From Phycisphaerales bacterium UBA1926 (lineage in GTDB: Bacteria > Planctomycetota > Phycisphaerae > Phycisphaerales > UBA1924): DNA of 24,446 nt. The position numbers and the translations under genes are program-made. The notes beneath the pieces are model-generated. The model was given only the letters and a program-made list of their open reading frames with translations. It had not been told where the DNA came from and ran no database searches. The stretch covers positions 413 through 24,858 of the forward strand of contig DDFO01000005.1 of NCBI GenBank assembly GCA_002337215.1. The letters run 5' to 3'. Below are positions 6,470-22,885 of this stretch, piece after piece; the first letter of the stretch is position 1; each line of letters starts with the position of its first letter.

Positions 6470-9400
6470 TCACCCGGGGGTGATGTCGGTCAGGTTGTTG
6501 AGCCCGAAGTTGTTGTCGGGATCGTTGATGCAGCGGAACGAGTTCTGCACGTCGTTGAAGAACGCGAGCAGGTCGAAGATATCCAGCACGCCCTCGGGGG
6601 CGGCAAAGTCGGCACGCATGTCGCCCGCGTTGAACAGATCGAGGAAGAGTGCCACGTCGACGGCGCTGATAATCCCGTCACCGTTCACGTCCGCCCGGCA
6701 GGGGTCCGGGGCCGGGCCCGAACCGTCAGGGAAGACCGGGATGCCGTAGAGGTTGCTCAGGCCGATGCGGTCGCCGAGGCTGAGCCCGCCGGCCTGACCG
6801 ATCTGATCGGCAAATTCCTCGAAACCTTCGCGGACCTGGATCGTCTCGAACCCCGGATCAAGCGTCCGGGCCGAGAAGAACGGGCCGCCGTGCGTGGCCG
6901 AGCGGAAGTCATAGGGGTTCTGAACCCGGATCCTGTCGATCGCGATCTCGATGGCGCGGGCCGGGTCGGTGTTCTGGGCGATGAACCGGACCTGGAAGGT
7001 CGGCAGACCGGTCTGGCTATCCGCCAACGTCTCACCGATCAGAACCTCGGCGAGCTGCCACTCGTCCGACTGGCTCGTCAGCGTCGTGAGCTCTTCCCAG
7101 GTCGCGCCGCTGTCGGCGGATGTCTGGACGATGAGTCCGTCGCCGTCCTGGATCGGGTCACCGCTCTCGCTGTTGATCCAGTAGGCGAAGCGGACGGACG
7201 CGTCCTGGGGGCCGTAGATGTTCGGCGAGGTGAAGACCGCCGTGCCCTGGATCTGCGTATCGGGGAAGCTCCCCGTCACGAGGGCGATCGCGGAGAGGTC
7301 GTCGTCGTCCACCGCGTAGTCCGCGGTCGGCGCTGCGCCGTCGTTGGCGTTCATGGTCGGATCGAGGAACGACCAGCCGCCCGCCGTTGCGCCGGAGTTG
7401 TCCAGCGTCCAGTTGCCCGGCGCGTGCGGCGTGAGCCCCACCGCGGGAACGGTCTCGGTCGTCGTATCGAAGTTCTCGATGAAGTTCGCGTACTTGTCCG
7501 AACCCGCCGGGACGATGTCGAGCCCGCCGTTGTTCGAGTCGATGTTCTCCTCGAGCACGCGGATGAATTCCTCGCGGTCGGGCCGCGTGTGCTCGTCGGC
7601 GAGGCTCAGCTGCCCCATGAGCGTGTACACGATGAACCCGACGTCCTGGGTGTCGAAGAGGTTCTGGGTGAGCCCGACGAGCCCGCACGGGATCGCGTCG
7701 AACGGGAAGGGGTTGAGCGACGCGGTTGTCCCACCCGGGAACACGCTGTCGGCGATCCCGTCGGCGTTGGTATCGATCGCGAGGTCGTTGAAGATGTCGA
7801 TGACCGAAGCGTCGCCGTCACCGTTCGTGTCGAGCATGTTGTCGAGCGTGCCGTCGAAGTTCATGTCCATGAGGAAGTTCGGGAGCGGGCCGACCGTGTA
7901 CGGGACGCCCTGGCCGCTCTGCAGACCCCGGACCACGAAGCCAGGGCCGAAGACATCCGCCGAGCTGATGGCCGTGTCGAGGTTGTTGTCGAGCACGCTC
8001 CGCGAGGCGTCGCTCAGCGGGACGATGTTGCCGGCGCCGAGTGAGCTGAAGATCACCTGGTCGGGCAGGCCGTCCCCGTTGCTGTCGGGCGTATCGGGGA
8101 ACCCGTCGCCGTCGAGATCGGTGAAGATGTAATCGATCGAGGGCGCGCCAAGCGGGGGTGGGTTCCGGGTCGTGCCGGTTTCGCTCGTGGCGTTGACACC
8201 GTTCTCGCCGTCCGCCGGGTTGCTGCCCTTGAGAATCAGCAACCAGGGGTAGTCATCCTCGGGGAACCAGGGCACCTCAGTGACCGCGGGCTGCGCCCCG
8301 CTCGGGATGCCTCCCGGATCGACCGCGAGCGTCGGAGGGGCGTTATCAAGCGTCCAGCCGACCGCGTTCAGCGGGTAGCTGATGCCCGGGCCGAGGCTCT
8401 GGAGGAACGGCGCGTTGACCGGCGAGAAACCGCCCCAGTCCGGCCGCTCGATGAACACGATGTTCGTCACGCTCTCGATCACCCGCATCGCGGTGAGCAC
8501 GAGTTGGCGTTCTTCTTCCTCAAGCACCTGGTTGCTGTCGAACGTCTCCTCGAACGCGTCCGGATCGGTCGAGTCGAAGTACAGCGACTGGGCGAGCCGC
8601 CACGCGGCCTCCGCGTCGGGGTGCAGGAAGATCGGACGGGCATCACCCCAGCGCGTCCCACCAAGACCGGTCGCCTGCAGGAACGGGAAGAGCTCCTCGT
8701 CGAAGTCGTTCGGGTCCGGCGGGGGGATCACGCTCCGGTTCACAAACTGCGGGTTTGCGGGCCAGGTGTCCGCGATCCCGTCGGTCTCGTCCGCGAGGTC
8801 CGCGAAGTCGATCACATCGTCTTCGTTGTCGTCGTTGGTCCGCAGGCCGACCTGGTTGAGGTTGTCCTCGCCGTCGTCCCATTCGATGTCGGTCATGCTC
8901 TCTTCGAGGAACTGGTAGTAGACCACCACCGGGCGGGCGGGCAACGGGTCGAAGACCTCGCCGTCGCCGTCGAAGTCAACCGTGTTCGAAGGCAACGCGA
9001 GCGGGGGCCAGATGCCGCCACCGTCCGCGCCCTCGACCGCGTCGGCGAACGCAAGGTTGCTGAAATCGGCGTAGCCGCCGAAGAGAGAGCGGAGGTAGAG
9101 GCGCGAGTACCGCATGCTCTTCTCGCGGCGGAGGCGGTGCGTATCCATCGAACGCCAGCCCTCACCGATGCCCGGAACGCCCGGCGGGTTGCGCCATTCG
9201 CCGGGCCCGAGGAGTCCGCGGTCGATCTCGGCCGAGTCGTCCGCGCCGTCGAAGACCACGACGCCGCCGCCCGTGCCGTTGTTGCTTCCGGGACGCCCGA
9301 GGTTCTTTTCTTCTTCGAGCAGCTGCCGGGCACGCTCGGCGACGATGCGGAGCAGTTCGACCTCGTTCAGATCCTTGAGCTGGGGCTGCACCGTCGGGAG

Positions 9401-9673
9401 CAGCTTCGCCACCTCGGTGTACTTCCCGTTCCGAAGATCGTTATCGATCTTCTCGCGGATCGCCTGCTGGTCCTGCTTCGTCCCGGCCGCTGACCGCAGC
9501 GACTCGCCGCTCGGCGAGGCTTTGTGCGCGGTGCCAGTCTCTGCGGACGATCGCTGAGCGGGCGATTGGGTCGGCGCGGTGTCAGCCAGCGCGACCGCCA
9601 TTCCCGAAAAAGCAATCAAGATCCCGGCGCCCGAGATCCGAGAAAAACGTGTCAAGGTCTGCTGCGTGCTCAT
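6470..9673 (-). CDS. Large secreted astacin-like protein with degenerate active site, inserted beta-sandwich-like domain and dockerin-like C-terminus
   Basis: This 1067-residue protein starts at ATG 9673, where a signal peptide begins (Arg-containing n-region, hydrophobic core 13-30, likely cleavage after ALA30). An upstream ATG at 9724 would bury that signal. Residues about 70-125 are charged and helical. Calcium-type Asp/Gly/Asn repeats occur at 517-540 and 602-642. Astacin-like landmarks are split by insertions: VIESVTNIVFIERP (398-411), then the active-site region YTLMGQLSLADE (683-694) followed by HTRPDREEF, then NFIENFD (730-736), a roughly 180-residue insert (about 740-918), YDFRSATHGG (921-930) at the Met-turn position and IGQAGGLSLGDRIGLSNLYG (958-977). 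Against HExxHxxGFxHE the ligands become Y683, G687 and D693, Glu becomes T684, and the Met-turn Met is T927. A dockerin-like block (DVNGDG at 995) closes the protein. Probably non-catalytic. Confidence 0.72.
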   Translation of the reverse strand: MSTQQTLTRFSRISGAGILIAFSGMAVALADTAPTQSPAQRSSAETGTAHKASPSGESLRSAAGTKQDQQAIREKIDNDLRNGKYTEVAKLLPTVQPQLKDLNEVELLRIVAERARQLLEEEKNLGRPGSNNGTGGGVVVFDGADDSAEIDRGLLGPGEWRNPPGVPGIGEGWRSMDTHRLRREKSMRYSRLYLRSLFGGYADFSNLAFADAVEGADGGGIWPPLALPSNTVDFDGDGEVFDPLPARPVVVYYQFLEESMTDIEWDDGEDNLNQVGLRTNDDNEDDVIDFADLADETDGIADTWPANPQFVNRSVIPPPDPNDFDEELFPFLQATGLGGTRWGDARPIFLHPDAEAAWRLAQSLYFDSTDPDAFEETFDSNQVLEEEERQLVLTAMRVIESVTNIVFIERPDWGGFSPVNAPFLQSLGPGISYPLNAVGWTLDNAPPTLAVDPGGIPSGAQPAVTEVPWFPEDDYPWLLILKGSNPADGENGVNATSETGTTRNPPPLGAPSIDYIFTDLDGDGFPDTPDSNGDGLPDQVIFSSLGAGNIVPLSDASRSVLDNNLDTAISSADVFGPGFVVRGLQSGQGVPYTVGPLPNFLMDMNFDGTLDNMLDTNGDGDASVIDIFNDLAIDTNADGIADSVFPGGTTASLNPFPFDAIPCGLVGLTQNLFDTQDVGFIVYTLMGQLSLADEHTRPDREEFIRVLEENIDSNNGGLDIVPAGSDKYANFIENFDTTTETVPAVGLTPHAPGNWTLDNSGATAGGWSFLDPTMNANDGAAPTADYAVDDDDLSAIALVTGSFPDTQIQGTAVFTSPNIYGPQDASVRFAYWINSESGDPIQDGDGLIVQTSADSGATWEELTTLTSQSDEWQLAEVLIGETLADSQTGLPTFQVRFIAQNTDPARAIEIAIDRIRVQNPYDFRSATHGGPFFSARTLDPGFETIQVREGFEEFADQIGQAGGLSLGDRIGLSNLYGIPVFPDGSGPAPDPCRADVNGDGIISAVDVALFLDLFNAGDMRADFAAPEGVLDIFDLLAFFNDVQNSFRCINDPDNNFGLNNLTDITPG

Positions 9674-9795
9674 GTTTGTATCCCGTGCTGTGCGCGGTCG
9701 ATCGGTGTCGACGCTCGCATCCATCGCCCCGCGAGATCGTACCCGGCCCGCGGTCTCGCCGCCCCGGCCGGGTGCCCTCGTCTGTGGATTCTCAT

Positions 9796-14334: not shown

Positions 14335-15030
14335 ATGCTCATCCTCTTCGACATCGACATGACTCTCCTCAAGACCAACGGCGCGGGCCGGCGGGCGATG
14401 GCAGACGCCGGCAAGAGGCTGTTTACCCCCGAGTTCGCCTTCGACGGTGTCGATTTCGCGGGCAGGCTCGACCCGCTCATCATCCGCGACCTGCTCACCG
14501 CCAACGGCATCGAGCCCACCCCCGACAACCTCGCCTCCATGAAGCGCGGCTACATCGAGGCTTTCGCCGACACCGCCGCCCCCTCCATCGAACCCCTCCC
14601 CGGCGCGGTCGAACTCGTGCACGCGATCGCGGACGAGGCCCGGAAAGACCCGTCCACGGTGCCCGGCGTGCTCACCGGCAACTTCGCCGAGACCGGCACC
14701 TTCAAGCTCCGCTCCATCGGGCTCGATCCCGCCCAGTTCCTCGTCCAGGTCTGGGGCGACGATTCCCCCCACGAGCCGCCCACGCGGGACCACCTGCCAC
14801 CCGTCGGCATCGACCGCTACCGGGGACTCCACAAGGCCGACCCGCGCGAGACGGTCATCCTCGGCGACACCGTCCACGACGTCGCGTGCGGGCTCGCAAG
14901 CGGATGCCGCGTCCTCGCCGTCGCGACAGGCCGAACCGACGCGCAGACGCTCGAGAACGCGGGTGCCCACCGCGTCGTCGAGACGCTCGCCGACACCGAA
15001 GACATCGCCCGCTGGTTGCTCATGGGCTGA
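14335..15030 (+). CDS. HAD-superfamily hydrolase (phosphoglycolate phosphatase-like)
   Basis: This 231-residue soluble phosphatase has all the haloacid dehalogenase motifs. Motif I is FDIDMTLL (residues 5-12) with the nucleophile D6 and acid/base D8. Motif II is the Thr of VLTGN. Motif IV is ILGDTVHDVACG with the paired acidic residues that bind Mg2+. The segment after motif I is a helical cap (about 15-90), as in phosphoglycolate phosphatase and beta-phosphoglucomutase-type enzymes. The real substrate cannot be read from sequence. It starts 47 bp after acyP and ends 20 bp before the DUF418 gene, so the three are probably cotranscribed. Confidence 0.9.
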   Translation: MLILFDIDMTLLKTNGAGRRAMADAGKRLFTPEFAFDGVDFAGRLDPLIIRDLLTANGIEPTPDNLASMKRGYIEAFADTAAPSIEPLPGAVELVHAIADEARKDPSTVPGVLTGNFAETGTFKLRSIGLDPAQFLVQVWGDDSPHEPPTRDHLPPVGIDRYRGLHKADPRETVILGDTVHDVACGLASGCRVLAVATGRTDAQTLENAGAHRVVETLADTEDIARWLLMG

Positions 15031-15050
15031 GCTTCTGTTCAACTGCGCAA

Positions 15051-16511
15051 ATGGAAGAGCACTCCGCCCACGATGCGTCGAGCGCGCCAGCACGCGCGAT
15101 CGACTCCCCGGCCCACGTTCAACTCCGCCCGGTGGCCGAGAAAGAACGCTTCCGCTCCATCGACGTCGTCCGCGGGTTTGCCCTTCTGGGCATCCTTGTG
15201 CCCAACATCGTCGCCTTCGGTTGGCCCGCCGCCACGATGGCGGACCCAACGATCATGGACGCCCACCTCGGCGCGACCGACAACTGGAACCACATCGGCC
15301 ACGACATCACCAGCATCTTCACCCTCGGCAAGATGATGGCGCTCTTCAGCATGCTCTTCGGTGCAGGCGTCATCGTCTACGCCCGCAAGTTCGACGAGGC
15401 GGGTGCCCGCGAACGCCTCGGTGCCGACGCCATCAACCGGGCCCACCGCGAGTTGGGCGAGAACATCGCCTACACCTGCCGGAAGTGCGGCTATGACCTC
15501 GCGGCGCTCATCCCCGAGGGCAGAATCGCCGGGGACACCACCTGCCCCGAGTGCGGCCTCGCCCAGCACACGCCGCGACGCCTCAAGATCTCCACCGGCG
15601 CAGGGCTCTGGTACCGCCGGACACTCTGGCTGCTCGCGATCGGGGTATTCCACGGGCTCTTCATGTGGTTCGGCGACATCCTCGTCTGGTACGCCGTCGC
15701 GGGCCTCGCCGCCGTCTGGTGGGTCCGCAGGTGGGACCCCAAACTCCAGATCGCCGTCGGCGTCGTGGGCCACCTGGTCACCACGATCCTCCTGCTGGGC
15801 ATCACCGGGCTCGGCATCTGGGCGATGCAGGCGGGCAAAATCCCGGGCGGGTCGCTCATGGGCGACCCGGCCGCCGAATTCGAGGCCTACACGGGCACCG
15901 TTGTCCAGGCGACCATCGCCCGCCTGATCACCGCTGCGAGTTTTTGGTTCTTTTTCCTGCCCTTCTTCCTCCCCGGTGTCACCGGGCTGATGATGATCGG
16001 CATGGGGCTCACCCGCCTGGGCATCCTCACCGGCGAGCGGTCCACCCGTTTCTACGCGATCATGGGCGGCGTCGGCACCGTTGGAGGGCTCGCGCTCACA
16101 GCGAGCATCTACTACGGACTGAAATCCGCGATGCCCGATTACGGGGGCATGATCTGGCAGTCCATGAGCCAGTTCGTGGGCCTGCCCATCTCGATGGGGT
16201 ACATGGGCCTGCTCATCTGGATGCTCAAGATCGGCCTGCTGAAGCGGGCAACCGCCGCCCTCGCCAACGTCGGACGCATGGCCCTCACCAACTATCTCCT
16301 CCAGACCCTCCTGTGCACGACCTTCTTCTACGGCCACGCCGGGGGCTTCTTCGGCGAGATCGACTACCCCGGCCTCTTTGCCGTCATCGCTTCGGTCTGG
16401 ACCATCAACCTCGTCTTCAGCGCGGTCTGGCTCCGCGCCTTCCGTTTCGGCCCCGCCGAATGGGTCTGGCGCAGCCTGACGTACTGGAAACCCCAGCCTC
16501 TCCGCCGTTGA
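15051..16511 (+). CDS. DUF418-family polytopic membrane protein with an inserted zinc ribbon
   Basis: This 486-residue membrane protein is of unknown function. About ten hydrophobic spans are visible, beginning with RSIDVVRGFALLGILVPN (35-52), the usual DUF418 opening. GKMMALFSMLFGAGVIVYA (93-111) and RRTLWLLAIGVFHGLFMWFGDILVWY (from 189) are the conserved family core, and LTNYLLQTLL and GPAEWVWRSLTYW mark the C-terminal DUF418 region. Between the second and third spans the loop is expanded by a four-cysteine motif: C143, C146, C165 and C168 (CRKCGYDL, then CPECG), a rubredoxin-like zinc ribbon. In typical members this loop is short. The start at 15051 lies 20 bp after the HAD stop; no clear Shine-Dalgarno is seen. 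Family members are often annotated as transporters or acyltransferase-like, but no substrate is known. Confidence 0.88.
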   Translation: MEEHSAHDASSAPARAIDSPAHVQLRPVAEKERFRSIDVVRGFALLGILVPNIVAFGWPAATMADPTIMDAHLGATDNWNHIGHDITSIFTLGKMMALFSMLFGAGVIVYARKFDEAGARERLGADAINRAHRELGENIAYTCRKCGYDLAALIPEGRIAGDTTCPECGLAQHTPRRLKISTGAGLWYRRTLWLLAIGVFHGLFMWFGDILVWYAVAGLAAVWWVRRWDPKLQIAVGVVGHLVTTILLLGITGLGIWAMQAGKIPGGSLMGDPAAEFEAYTGTVVQATIARLITAASFWFFFLPFFLPGVTGLMMIGMGLTRLGILTGERSTRFYAIMGGVGTVGGLALTASIYYGLKSAMPDYGGMIWQSMSQFVGLPISMGYMGLLIWMLKIGLLKRATAALANVGRMALTNYLLQTLLCTTFFYGHAGGFFGEIDYPGLFAVIASVWTINLVFSAVWLRAFRFGPAEWVWRSLTYWKPQPLRR

Positions 16512-19730: not shown

Positions 19731-21161
19731 CTAGTCAACAGCCGTCGTCACCCAGCCGTTCGCCGTCGCCGCCGTGATCGGAAGCGCGAGGTGCACCGTC
19801 AACTCGGCGCCGCGCAGATCCGCCGCGACGCCCACCGAGTCGCACACCGCGTGCAGCGTCGCCCGCCGGTTCGATGTGTCGAGCGGCGCAAGCCGAGCGA
19901 GCAGCGGCAGGTTCACACCCGCCCACACGCGTGCTTTCATGAGTTCACCCGCCGCGTCCCCGTCCCACCACGCGAGCAGATGCAGCCCGCCCGCGCCGTC
20001 GATCGCCATCTCGACCCGCTCGGCGACCGGGCAGGGCAGATCGAGCCCCGTGAGCCCCGGGACCAGCGTCGAGGGCAGCGGGCGATCCACCCGAGACTCG
20101 GCGATCGGCCCATCCGCGGCACCCGGCGCGAATCCGCCGACCGCCTTCGGCTCAAGGACAGATTCCTGTGCGAATGTCCTCGTCGAGTGCTCAGTCCCTG
20201 TCCCTGTCCCAGACCCAGGCACAGGCCCCGCCGCAGCGCCGACCGCCGGCGCCGGGCGACCGCTGTCGAGCACCGACGCCACCCGACGCGCGGTGTCCCG
20301 GTCCACCGCCGGTTCGCGGGCGTCCGCCACGCACGCCGCGATTGTCTCCAGCAGGTCCGAGGGCTCGCACCGCGCGTCCGCTTCGCCGATCATCGACACC
20401 GTCGCGGTCTCGATCTTGGGCACCGCCCGCCGGGGCGAGAGCGCCATGCCCAAGAACCGCTTGGCCGCGATCCCGATCCGGTCGGTCGCCCGCGTCGTCT
20501 CGTCGTGCCCCGAGCCCACGACCGAGATCCCGACATCGACCGCCCCCTCGGCGATCGCGTCCCCCCGGTCATCGCTCAGCGTCTTGAGCAGCCGGTACGC
20601 CGACACCACCGCGGGCTCATCCGCCCCGCTCAGCACCGTCACACGGTCAAACCTTTGTTCGCGCAGCATCCCCGCCTGGTCCACCTCGTCGAAGTGCAGC
20701 AGCCAGTGCTCGGTCGCGCTCGATACCGCTTGGATCGCGAGTTCCGTGTCATCCACGGCCTCGGTCTCGACGCTCGACCCGACGAGCTCGACGGTCGTCC
20801 GATCGCCCGTGACGCGCACGAGCGCGACCGGCCGACCCTCACCCCGTGAAACCGCCGACGCGTACGCCCGCACCCACACCGCCCCGCGGACGGGAAGGTG
20901 CCCGGTGATGACCGCCTCGATCGCCGGTTCGGTGATCGGTGCCGGCCGCTCGGAGCGGGCCGTGTCCGCCGCGTGCCCGCGGTCATGCTCATCGCCGCCC
21001 GCGCCCTCCGGCGCAGCGTCGTCGGCTCCGATGAATAGCTCCGCGAGCGCGTCGAGCTCGTCGGTGTCCACCGCGGGATCGGGTTCCCAGACGGCCTCTC
21101 CGCCGGTATCAACGAGTCTCAGCGATGCGCGCGCATCCGCGCTCCCGTGGTGCGATTCCAT
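19731..21161 (-). CDS. Protein of unknown function with a P-loop-less MinD/FlhG-like segment, partner of the ParA-CBM gene
   Basis: This 476-residue protein has no close family that I recognise. Residues about 78-255 read like the ATPase fold of MinD/FlhG without its nucleotide loop: GHLPVRGAVWVRAYASAV where a P-loop would lie, then HWLLHFDEV, FDRVTVLSGADEPAVVSAYR (171-190) with LLKTLS following, and RIGIAAKRFLG (228-238). The later stretch parallels the FlhG/MinD pattern of a strand, TTPEPTAI-x-DAYALIK, and a helix ending in RFLG. Residues 300-365 are Pro/Ala/Gly-rich linker, and 366-476 form a separate alpha/beta C-terminal domain. AGGAG, 4 nt before ATG 21161, supports the start. It begins 46 bp after the ParA-CBM gene on the same strand, so the two are likely cotranscribed and functionally linked. 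Confidence 0.7.
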   Translation of the reverse strand: MESHHGSADARASLRLVDTGGEAVWEPDPAVDTDELDALAELFIGADDAAPEGAGGDEHDRGHAADTARSERPAPITEPAIEAVITGHLPVRGAVWVRAYASAVSRGEGRPVALVRVTGDRTTVELVGSSVETEAVDDTELAIQAVSSATEHWLLHFDEVDQAGMLREQRFDRVTVLSGADEPAVVSAYRLLKTLSDDRGDAIAEGAVDVGISVVGSGHDETTRATDRIGIAAKRFLGMALSPRRAVPKIETATVSMIGEADARCEPSDLLETIAACVADAREPAVDRDTARRVASVLDSGRPAPAVGAAAGPVPGSGTGTGTEHSTRTFAQESVLEPKAVGGFAPGAADGPIAESRVDRPLPSTLVPGLTGLDLPCPVAERVEMAIDGAGGLHLLAWWDGDAAGELMKARVWAGVNLPLLARLAPLDTSNRRATLHAVCDSVGVAADLRGAELTVHLALPITAATANGWVTTAVD

Positions 21162-21207
21162 GGCACTCCTCGTGGACCCGGCGCGAGTGGGCCGCGCGCC
21201 GCGTCTC

Positions 21208-22761
21208 TCAGTCTGCCTCAACAATGCTGTTCCGTTCGCCGAACTCGTTGAGCTCGCTGAACGGGTTGAACTGATCCTCCACCCAACGTCCGTCGACCAC
21301 GAGCCGGTAGCAGATCCGCCCCGAACTCGAATCGAGCGTCGTTTCGTGCACACCCAGCGGCTCGTTCCGCGTCATGGGCGTCGCCGTCGCGCTCCAGTTG
21401 TTGAAATCGCCCGCGATGCGGACATCGAGACCGAGCTCGATCGGCTGGACGAAGACGATCTTGTTGCCGTGCCGCCTTGCACCGAAGAGCCGCGCGACCG
21501 ATTTCGATCGGCGGTCCGAATCGTGCGCGTCCTCAACGAGTCGCACCGCACCGTTCGAACTCCGCAGCCGCGTCTGCAGCCGCGAGGGCCCGGCCGGCGT
21601 GCGTGTTTTCTCGTTCAACGCCGCCGCCCGGCGGACCAGATCCTCCACCCGGCTCAGCGTTTCGACCGGGTCGCCCGCGGGTTTCGGCTCCGTCGCCGGC
21701 GCCGCCTCGGGAGACGGAGCTTTCGTCGCGGTGCTCGAAGCGACCGCAGCACCCTGAGAAGTCGCGCCCGCCGCTCGCAGGGGCTCGACAGCGGGAGCCT
21801 TCGGGGTTGTCGGCGTGGGTGTCGCCGGCGCGGGGGCCGAAACAGCCGGATTCGACCGCCCATTCAGAGGCCGAGCGGTCTTCCGGCGTGCGCCCAAGGG
21901 CAGCTCCGTCGGCTTCACTTCGATTGTCGCGTCGTCCAGCTCGCCCGCGGTGTCGCCCAACAGCCACGCCCCGAGCGCCCTGTAGTCGGTCGAGCCTTCC
22001 GACTCGCCCGCGTATTCGATCACGGGCTGCCCGTACGACGACGCCTCACGGACCCGCGGGTCCTGGCGGATCGACACCGGGATCACCGCGTCGCCGAACC
22101 GCTTGCCGAGCTCATCGCGGAGGTCCTGGGCGAGCGAATGGCTCGGATCGTGGATCGTCGCGAGCAGCCGGGTCACCGGACGCGTGCCCAGTCGCCGGCC
22201 CAGGCTCTGGATCGTCGCGGCCTGCTTGGTCGCGCCCTGCAGGCTGAAGAAACTCGTCTCGACCGGGATCAGGATCTCCTCGGCCGCCGCGATCGCGTTG
22301 TAGGTCAGCAGCCCGATGCCCGGGGGGCAATCGATCACCGCAAACTCGAACGGGCCCGACTCTGTGTCCTTGACCGCGGTGTCCCGCACCACATCGAGCA
22401 CGCGCCGCAGCCGGTGCTCACGCTCCGGTGCCGATGCGAGGCCCCCGCGGACCGCCTCGAGCGCCGCGAGCTTTGTCCGGCTCGGCGCCAGGTCCAGGTT
22501 GCGGGAGACCCGCCACAGCAGTTTTTCAGGATCGAACGACTTGGCGCTCGCTTCGGTGCCGCCGACCTTCAGCATCGCATCGCCGATGTCGTACTCGATG
22601 CTCGCGGGGGGCACGGCGAGCCCGGCGGCGCAGTGCGCCTGGGGGTCGAGATCGACGAGCAGCGTCCGATGCCCCATCTCCGCGAGGACCGCCGAGAGGT
22701 TGATCGCTGTCGTCGTCTTCCCGCAGCCGCCCTTCTGATTGATGATCGCGATCGTCCGCAT
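21208..22761 (-). CDS. ParA/Soj-type ATPase fused to a C-terminal glycogen-binding (AMPK1-CBM/CBM48) domain
   Basis: This 517-residue protein has two recognisable parts. Residues 1-270 are a complete ParA-type ATPase: deviant Walker A NQKGGCGKTT (8-17) with signature K10 and K15, Walker A' LLVDLDPQ (34-41), Walker B FAVIDCPPG (140-148), and SFFSLQGATKQ. Such ATPases position DNA, chemosensory arrays or carboxysomes. Residues about 285-375 are a Pro/Ala/Thr linker, and 376-432 are basic and helical. Residues 433-517 match the glycogen-binding domain of AMPK beta and branching enzymes: DVRIAGDFNNW, CYRLVVDGRWVED, FGERNS. The residues known to hold glycogen in AMPK beta1 (W100, K126, W133, N150) correspond to W456, R486, W493 and N511. 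There is no adjacent parB or parS, so this is probably not the chromosome-partition ParA. Confidence 0.9.
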   Translation of the reverse strand: MRTIAIINQKGGCGKTTTAINLSAVLAEMGHRTLLVDLDPQAHCAAGLAVPPASIEYDIGDAMLKVGGTEASAKSFDPEKLLWRVSRNLDLAPSRTKLAALEAVRGGLASAPEREHRLRRVLDVVRDTAVKDTESGPFEFAVIDCPPGIGLLTYNAIAAAEEILIPVETSFFSLQGATKQAATIQSLGRRLGTRPVTRLLATIHDPSHSLAQDLRDELGKRFGDAVIPVSIRQDPRVREASSYGQPVIEYAGESEGSTDYRALGAWLLGDTAGELDDATIEVKPTELPLGARRKTARPLNGRSNPAVSAPAPATPTPTTPKAPAVEPLRAAGATSQGAAVASSTATKAPSPEAAPATEPKPAGDPVETLSRVEDLVRRAAALNEKTRTPAGPSRLQTRLRSSNGAVRLVEDAHDSDRRSKSVARLFGARRHGNKIVFVQPIELGLDVRIAGDFNNWSATATPMTRNEPLGVHETTLDSSSGRICYRLVVDGRWVEDQFNPFSELNEFGERNSIVEAD

Positions 22762-22885
22762 TCGGATCCGCCCCTAAGCCGGAATCGGCTCTCGCAGAAT
22801 CGACGCCCAAACCCTCGTCCACACCTCCTCTTCCCGGCCGCGTTATCGGCCTCCACTCGGCGAATGCTTGAATGACATAATCACA

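Follow-up and report, generated by a model that had tools for sequence, protein, structure and literature searches.

The ParA-CBM fusion and its domains

The window studied here, the whole 24,446-nucleotide stretch of DNA that was analysed, comes from contig DDFO01000005.1 of the Phycisphaerales bacterium UBA1926 (assembly GCA_002337215.1; genome G000, 74% complete). On its minus strand lies a gene that joins a ParA ATPase, through a long linker, to a carbohydrate-binding module (CBM) of the AMPK beta type. The features of this fusion are the following.

21208..22761, minus strand: ParA-linker-CBM fusion gene (ATG start, 517 aa, intact open reading frame)
21952..22761, minus strand: ParA ATPase domain, residues 1-270
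22711..22740, minus strand: deviant Walker A NQKGGCGKTT, residues 8-17, invariant in 118/118 and 91/91 relatives
21604..21666, minus strand: conserved linker helix, residues 366-386, consensus SRAEDLxxRAxxL (predicted helix and conserved columns)
21211..21489, minus strand: AMPK1_CBM/CBM48-type domain, residues 425-517, with W456, R486, W493, F507 and N511 (PF16561, profile match, conserved residues)

The minus-strand open reading frame (ORF) 21208-22761 has no internal stop. A plus-strand ORF at 19774-22875 overlaps it. Its frame, though uninterrupted, gave no Pfam match at E<=1; belonging to no family, it was rejected as a gene and treated as a shadow of those on the minus strand. Chance or a frame artefact was likewise rejected as the origin of the fusion, which was found again in relatives and stands far above chance because many of them carry it with the ligand residues retained. 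The observed ParA-CBM fusion is confirmed as real. The first-pass annotation of this DNA, made from the letters alone, had rightly described an intact ParA fused with an AMPK-beta/CBM48-group CBM; granule partitioning, one of the roles it proposed, was not supported in the form given, and the partner gene described below had been overlooked.

Conservation was examined in an alignment of 118 homologues (the best 120 matches minus 2 shorter than 431 aa) and in a 91-row set. Both were gathered by similarity to this fusion protein and are therefore silent on more remote CBMs. The ParA ATPase is intact, as had been claimed from K10 and K15 of the deviant Walker A: both lie inside NQKGGCGKTT and are unchanged in all 118 aligned relatives, and the pattern KGGxGKT with its signature lysine occurs in 91/91 rows. 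The Walker A' (DxDPQ) and Walker B (DCPP type) residues D37, D39, P40, Q41, D144, C145 and P147 are equally invariant (91/91), and basic positions of the domain are conserved in the same set. The domain has a Soj-like fold, with Soj/ParA proteins as its nearest solved structures. It scores over the Pfam cut-off for CBP_BcsQ (39 vs 21.3), and over those of several sister families, and far under the NCBIfam cut-off for BcsQ (89.9 vs 157.85). No ParB family match was found in the scanned ORFs of the window; the ParB search did not extend to the rest of the genome.

The Pro/Ala/Thr linker noticed earlier is present at about residues 271-419. Its low model confidence is read as disorder, except for the helix at 366-386, which reaches a pLDDT (model confidence) of about 77 at best. 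A resembling RAxEL motif was spotted by eye in three CBM-less orthologues (L156, L159 and L163).

The C-terminal domain contains the motifs GDFNNW, VDGRW and FGERNS that first drew attention to it, and its assignment to this CBM group was borne out by a match to PF16561 AMPK1_CBM (28.8 bits against a cut-off of 26.8, E 1.4e-6); the sister model CBM_48 gave 21.4 bits, slightly under its cut-off of 22.4. The whole fusion protein matches the solved AMPK beta CBM 1z0n at E 1.6e-5, and a 15-row CBM profile matches solved AMPK beta CBMs at E 1.4e-13. AMPK beta heads the matches of the profile, followed by GlgB, a pullulanase and the glucan phosphatases LSF1, DSP4 and SEX4. Structure prediction modelled the domain at a pLDDT of about 89-96.

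In AMPK beta1 the sugar is contacted by W100, K126, W133 and N150 (PMC4032982), and L146 and T148 also touch it (PMC2642990). The profile alignment pairs W456, R486, W493 and N511 with the first four of these, which is the correspondence that the first-pass annotation had drawn. W456 and W493 are invariant in the 118 homologues, where residue 486 is R in 117 and K in 1, and residue 511 is N in 111. The 91-row set gives the same picture: the four positions read W,R,W,N in 86 rows, W,R,W,D in 4 and W,K,W,N in 1, so that both tryptophans are kept in 91/91, N511 in 87/91, and the K126 position is R in 90/91 and K in 1. Position 507, equivalent to AMPK L146, is F in 82 rows and Y in 9. The K-to-R change, already noted as keeping the charge, is thus a family-wide trait. 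Judged from this conserved W/R/W/N face, the CBM probably binds alpha-glucan.

A P-loop-less FlhG/FleN-like protein as probable partner

A second minus-strand gene starts just beyond the fusion.

19731..21161, minus strand: partner gene, 476 aa, P-loop-less FlhG/FleN-like, 46 bp downstream of the parA stop
20313..20933, minus strand: MinD/FlhG-like domain of the partner, about residues 77-283
20874..20909, minus strand: partner residues 85-96 (ITGHLPVRGAVW), in the place of the P-loop and without Walker A (hhalign)
19734..20084, minus strand: C-terminal domain of the partner, residues 360-476 (pLDDT mostly 90 or more)

The partner has a MinD-like fold and matches FlhG/FleN profiles; it was not classed as an FlhG ATPase because the Walker A P-loop is absent. 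In the hhalign alignment TGHLPVRGAV stands opposite SGKGGVGKTT, and none of 39 partner rows shows a Walker A pattern. The C-terminal domain of the window's partner (P0122) has no Pfam match, and among the 39 members it gave just two isolated weak matches (E 0.046 and 0.069).

No FlhF lies beside the partner in the window, where it adjoins ParA-CBM and ClpX; the scan of its neighbours for FlhF was confined to the window. The 9 class genomes retrieved for comparison contain Walker-A-bearing FlhG-like ORFs at other sites, and ORFs with FlhF-like motifs adjoin 8/9 of these ORFs. No McdB-type adaptor lies next to ParA, the conserved neighbour being FlhG-like; McdB was not sought elsewhere.

Distribution and gene neighbourhood

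A protein search with the fusion gave 3741 matches at E<=0.001. Among the best 120 of these, all but two (P0044 and P0065) combine AAA_31 with PF16561, as counted by eye, and the named hosts are metagenome-assembled genomes of Phycisphaerae or other Planctomycetota, names from which the class was in part identified. The fusion protein was matched in G000 and all of its 60 nearest relatives (61/61), many of which also have a weaker, separate ParA. A profile of the CBM alone (E<=1e-10) matched 271/298 sampled genomes of the class and 214/230 of the better ones. These are counts of CBMs and not of proven fusions, because 7 of the listed matches sit in frames of 119-129 aa and because matches in four families (f2, f9, f15 and f22) are often weak. 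The short frames, which carry the same CBM subtype as stand-alone units, are found in G155:C13, G176:C6, G268:C2, G271:C4, G298:C109, G317:C42 and G319:C55; each of these genomes also has a frame longer than 430 aa that includes the CBM.

In a sample of the phylum, 46/199 genomes matched the CBM profile, 12 of them inside the class. The 34 matches outside it are mostly weaker and lie in frames of varied sizes, the best being G386 (E 1.4e-27), followed by G453 (1.6e-24, in a 167-aa frame). G386, the one outside-class match inspected, has CBM and ParA in one 409-aa frame.

We inspected 41 loci: the window, 20 order-level loci selected chiefly by match quality, and another 20 selected for a good CBM score, 3 from the order and 17 from other families of the class. 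ParA and CBM share a single ORF in 40/41, the exception being L041 of G026. Besides the partner gene, an aroB relative is conserved, lying upstream in 12/21 order-level loci, directly so in 11, and no other neighbour is common to more than 8 of the 41 (opposite-strand shadow ORFs aside). Elsewhere in the window are a DUF418 protein (14886-16511, plus strand, E 4.3e-39) and a protein of 1084 aa (6470-9724, minus strand) that weakly matches astacin and reelin-like families.

Repeated loss of the CBM

In a tree of 43 ParA domains, built without an FlhG outgroup, a branch with support 100/99 sets apart 10 Soj-like copies of the class. One of these is the second ParA of the window's genome, G000:C8 (L053:8789-9811). 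It is preceded by exopolysaccharide-like ORFs (Wzc-like, glycosyl-phosphate-transferase-like and epimerase-like, judged by eye), and no ParB was recognised beside it by eye. The G386 fusion also falls on the Soj-like side (100/97, long branch) and, given this position, may be an independent fusion.

Seven CBM-less ParAs are nested among the order-level members of the ParA-CBM group. No CBM was found in their loci. The CBM-less state requires five changes on the tree, four of them forced by well-supported branches; one row, L163, has a long branch and an uncertain placement. The partner is present in six of the CBM-less-ParA genomes (G026, G018, G239, G291, G042 and G054), of which G042 and G054 have a weak CBM match elsewhere in the genome, and was not detected in the seventh, G048. 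Several lineages have lost the CBM yet kept ParA with its partner. Since some lineages dropped the CBM in this way, it would be an input to the module proposed below and not its core.

Alpha-glucan metabolism of host genomes

If the CBM holds glycogen, host genomes are expected to make it. No glycogen genes were found among the scanned ORFs of the window. Classical GlgA (TIGR02095) exceeded its cut-off in 1/42 genomes, that one being G386 outside the class, and in 0/41 class members; all 42 have weaker, generic GlgA matches.

Other enzymes were compared in 26 genomes selected by hand, of which 17 were scored as CBM-bearing and 9 as lacking the CBM. Within the latter group, G266 gave a weak CBM match (E 1.1e-15), and four genomes (G077, G137, G097 and G266) matched the ParA of the fusion at the Soj level only (E 1e-29 to 1e-40). 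GT35 phosphorylase (TIGR02094, E<=1e-30) is present in 23/26 genomes, G000 included: 16/17 CBM-bearing and 7/9 others. The eukaryote-type glycogen synthase GT3 (PF05693, E<=1e-20) is present in 13/26, 9/17 and 4/9 respectively. GlgB (TIGR01515) exceeded its cut-off in 6/17 CBM-bearing genomes and 0/9 others (11/26 match at E<=1e-60) and, alone of the tested enzymes, is confined to CBM-bearing genomes. GH57 (PF03065) was found in 10/10 CBM-bearing genomes and 2/4 others (12/14). Alpha-glucan handling is therefore common and its routes varied, GT35, GT3, GlgB and GH57 differing between genomes. G018 and G048 have GT3 and GT35 and a ParA without CBM. G211 has an intact CBM and the partner, and GH57 is the sole tested glucan enzyme found in it; GT35, GT3, GlgB and GlgA were not found there at the thresholds applied.

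GT3, GT35 and GlgB cluster within about 7 kb in three genomes (G072:C1:1483962-1490649, G025:C1:94362-101016 and G090:C1:2375766-2382362). In four GT3-less genomes GH57 adjoins a weakly GlgA-like glycosyltransferase (G203:C1:387465-389645, G192:C4:26023-27492, G112:C1:2072379-2073857 and G064:C13:132540-134055), possibly as an alternative pair for alpha-glucan synthesis.

Co-occurrence with glycogen genes was considered as proof of cargo and set aside as not decisive. Nor does it settle the question of a glucan ligand either way, and it weighs against a simple glycogen-granule partition system.

Interpretation and alternative explanations

We tentatively favour a two-protein positioning or regulatory module based on the nucleoid, in which the CBM has a glucan-sensing or tethering role. 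The ParA subunit would dimerise with ATP and bind DNA non-specifically, like Soj and McdA, as its motifs, fold and basic residues suggest. The CBM, tethered by some 150 residues that are mostly disordered, would bind intracellular alpha-1,4-glucan chains or maltodextrins. Linkage of the genes points to the P-loop-less FlhG-like protein as the usual partner, which may take the place of ParB or McdB and connect ParA to a cargo or a polar machine. Glucan binding would then adjust the location or cycling rate of ParA, and through it carbohydrate status would influence how the cell is organised. Where both proteins are present, they very probably form a functional pair. Several observations weigh against this module. 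R486 replaces the ligand lysine K126 of AMPK as a family trait, and an arginine in this place is not known to bind. Neither GT35 nor GT3 tracks the CBM. The first 76 residues and the linker of the partner are modelled at low confidence. The partner is also not obligatory: it is missing beside parA in 10/20 further loci and was not detected at E<=1e-5 in G203 and G192, which retain the CBM, or in the CBM-less G048; G112 and G086 give just weak partner matches, in FlhG-sized frames, and that of G112 carries a Walker A.

The first-pass annotation had offered both granule partitioning, its main reading, and carbohydrate sensing, and the sensor alternative fits better. Against partitioning stand the scanned ORFs of the window, which include no glycogen gene, classical GlgA over its cut-off in one of 42 genomes, the lineages with ParA and partner but without CBM, and G211, where GT35, GT3, GlgB and GlgA were not found at the thresholds applied. 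The positioning of glycogen particles appears rather unlikely; in it ParA, with its CBM as a built-in hook for the cargo, would distribute alpha-glucan particles along the nucleoid and to both daughter cells. It draws support from the intact ligand face, from the GT35, GT3, GlgB and GH57 genes of CBM-bearing genomes (16/17, 9/17, 6/17 and 10/10), and from the many cargos that ParA/MinD ATPases place through diverse partners (PMC10241942), carboxysomes among them (PMC13052382). However, a CBM on ParA and not on an adaptor would pin the ATPase to its cargo, unlike in ParAB and McdAB. A broader proposal, somewhat more plausible though still doubtful, is a class-wide machine that either places or apportions alpha-glucan particles or makes the organisation of the cell cycle depend on the glucan reserve, with a glucan-holding ParA gliding on the nucleoid and a pseudo-FlhG replacing ParB.

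Many E-set/CBM48 domains act as structural modules, and the domain could be an E-set interaction module for a protein or another sugar polymer. The CBM_48 score just under cut-off, the arginine at the K126 position and the failure of GT35 and GT3 to follow the CBM agree with this. The invariance of two tryptophans and the retention of N511 (87/91) seem to go beyond what the fold needs, however, and the profile matches AMPK beta best, then GlgB and the other proteins named above; we regard this alternative as unlikely. An ordinary chromosome-partition ParA with an ornamental tail is very improbable: Soj/ParA are indeed the nearest solved relatives, but the class, G000 included, has a separate group of Soj-like ParAs, which weakens this explanation, and the conserved neighbour is FlhG-like, with no ParB match in the scanned ORFs of the window.

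Significance and comparison with known systems

ParA ATPases are among the chief devices by which bacteria position cargo, and the great diversity of their cargo adaptors leaves many of them orphans (PMC10241942). In the present case the sequence itself hints at what ParA responds to, through a sugar-binding domain on the ATPase and a dead FlhG-like partner. A ParA with a CBM, often beside a pseudo-FlhG, suggests that carbohydrate state may be coupled to internal organisation. If glucan does gate ParA, the module would be a direct physical link from energy reserve to cell organisation, a bacterial counterpart of glycogen sensing by AMPK. Planctomycetota lack FtsZ (PMC5147048), and the fusion module could offer a handle on their cell organisation.

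The statement of the first-pass annotation that no system of this kind was known to it agrees with searches of the open-licence literature: among the titles and abstract openings that these listed, neither a ParA carrying a domain for glucan nor a P-loop-less FlhG partner of ParA was described. Compared with Soj/ParA, the fusion differs by the added CBM and linker, the FlhG-like neighbour and a tree position separate from the Soj-like copies of the class. Carboxysome positioning uses McdA/McdB (PMC13052382, a review whose main text does not contain the word 'glycogen'), whereas here the neighbour that is conserved has a MinD fold and does not resemble McdB, and the sugar-binding domain sits on the ATPase. 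The glycogen-binding domain of AMPK beta (PF16561) is alike in domain family and in the ligand positions W100, W133 and N150, but here the domain is fused to a bacterial ParA, with R for K126 and F for L146. The partner resembles FlhG/FleN, the ATPase that places flagella in the FlhF-FlhG system, in fold and profile, and differs by its absent P-loop, its extra C-terminal domain and its position beside ParA-CBM. BcsQ-BcsE also pairs a MinD-superfamily ATPase with a protein that has a divergent, probably ATP-incompetent NTPase-like domain (PMC7439463); in BcsE, however, that domain is RecA-like, and c-di-GMP is sensed by a separate degenerate GGDEF module. The components of the ParA-CBM system are of known kinds, and their combination appears to be new.
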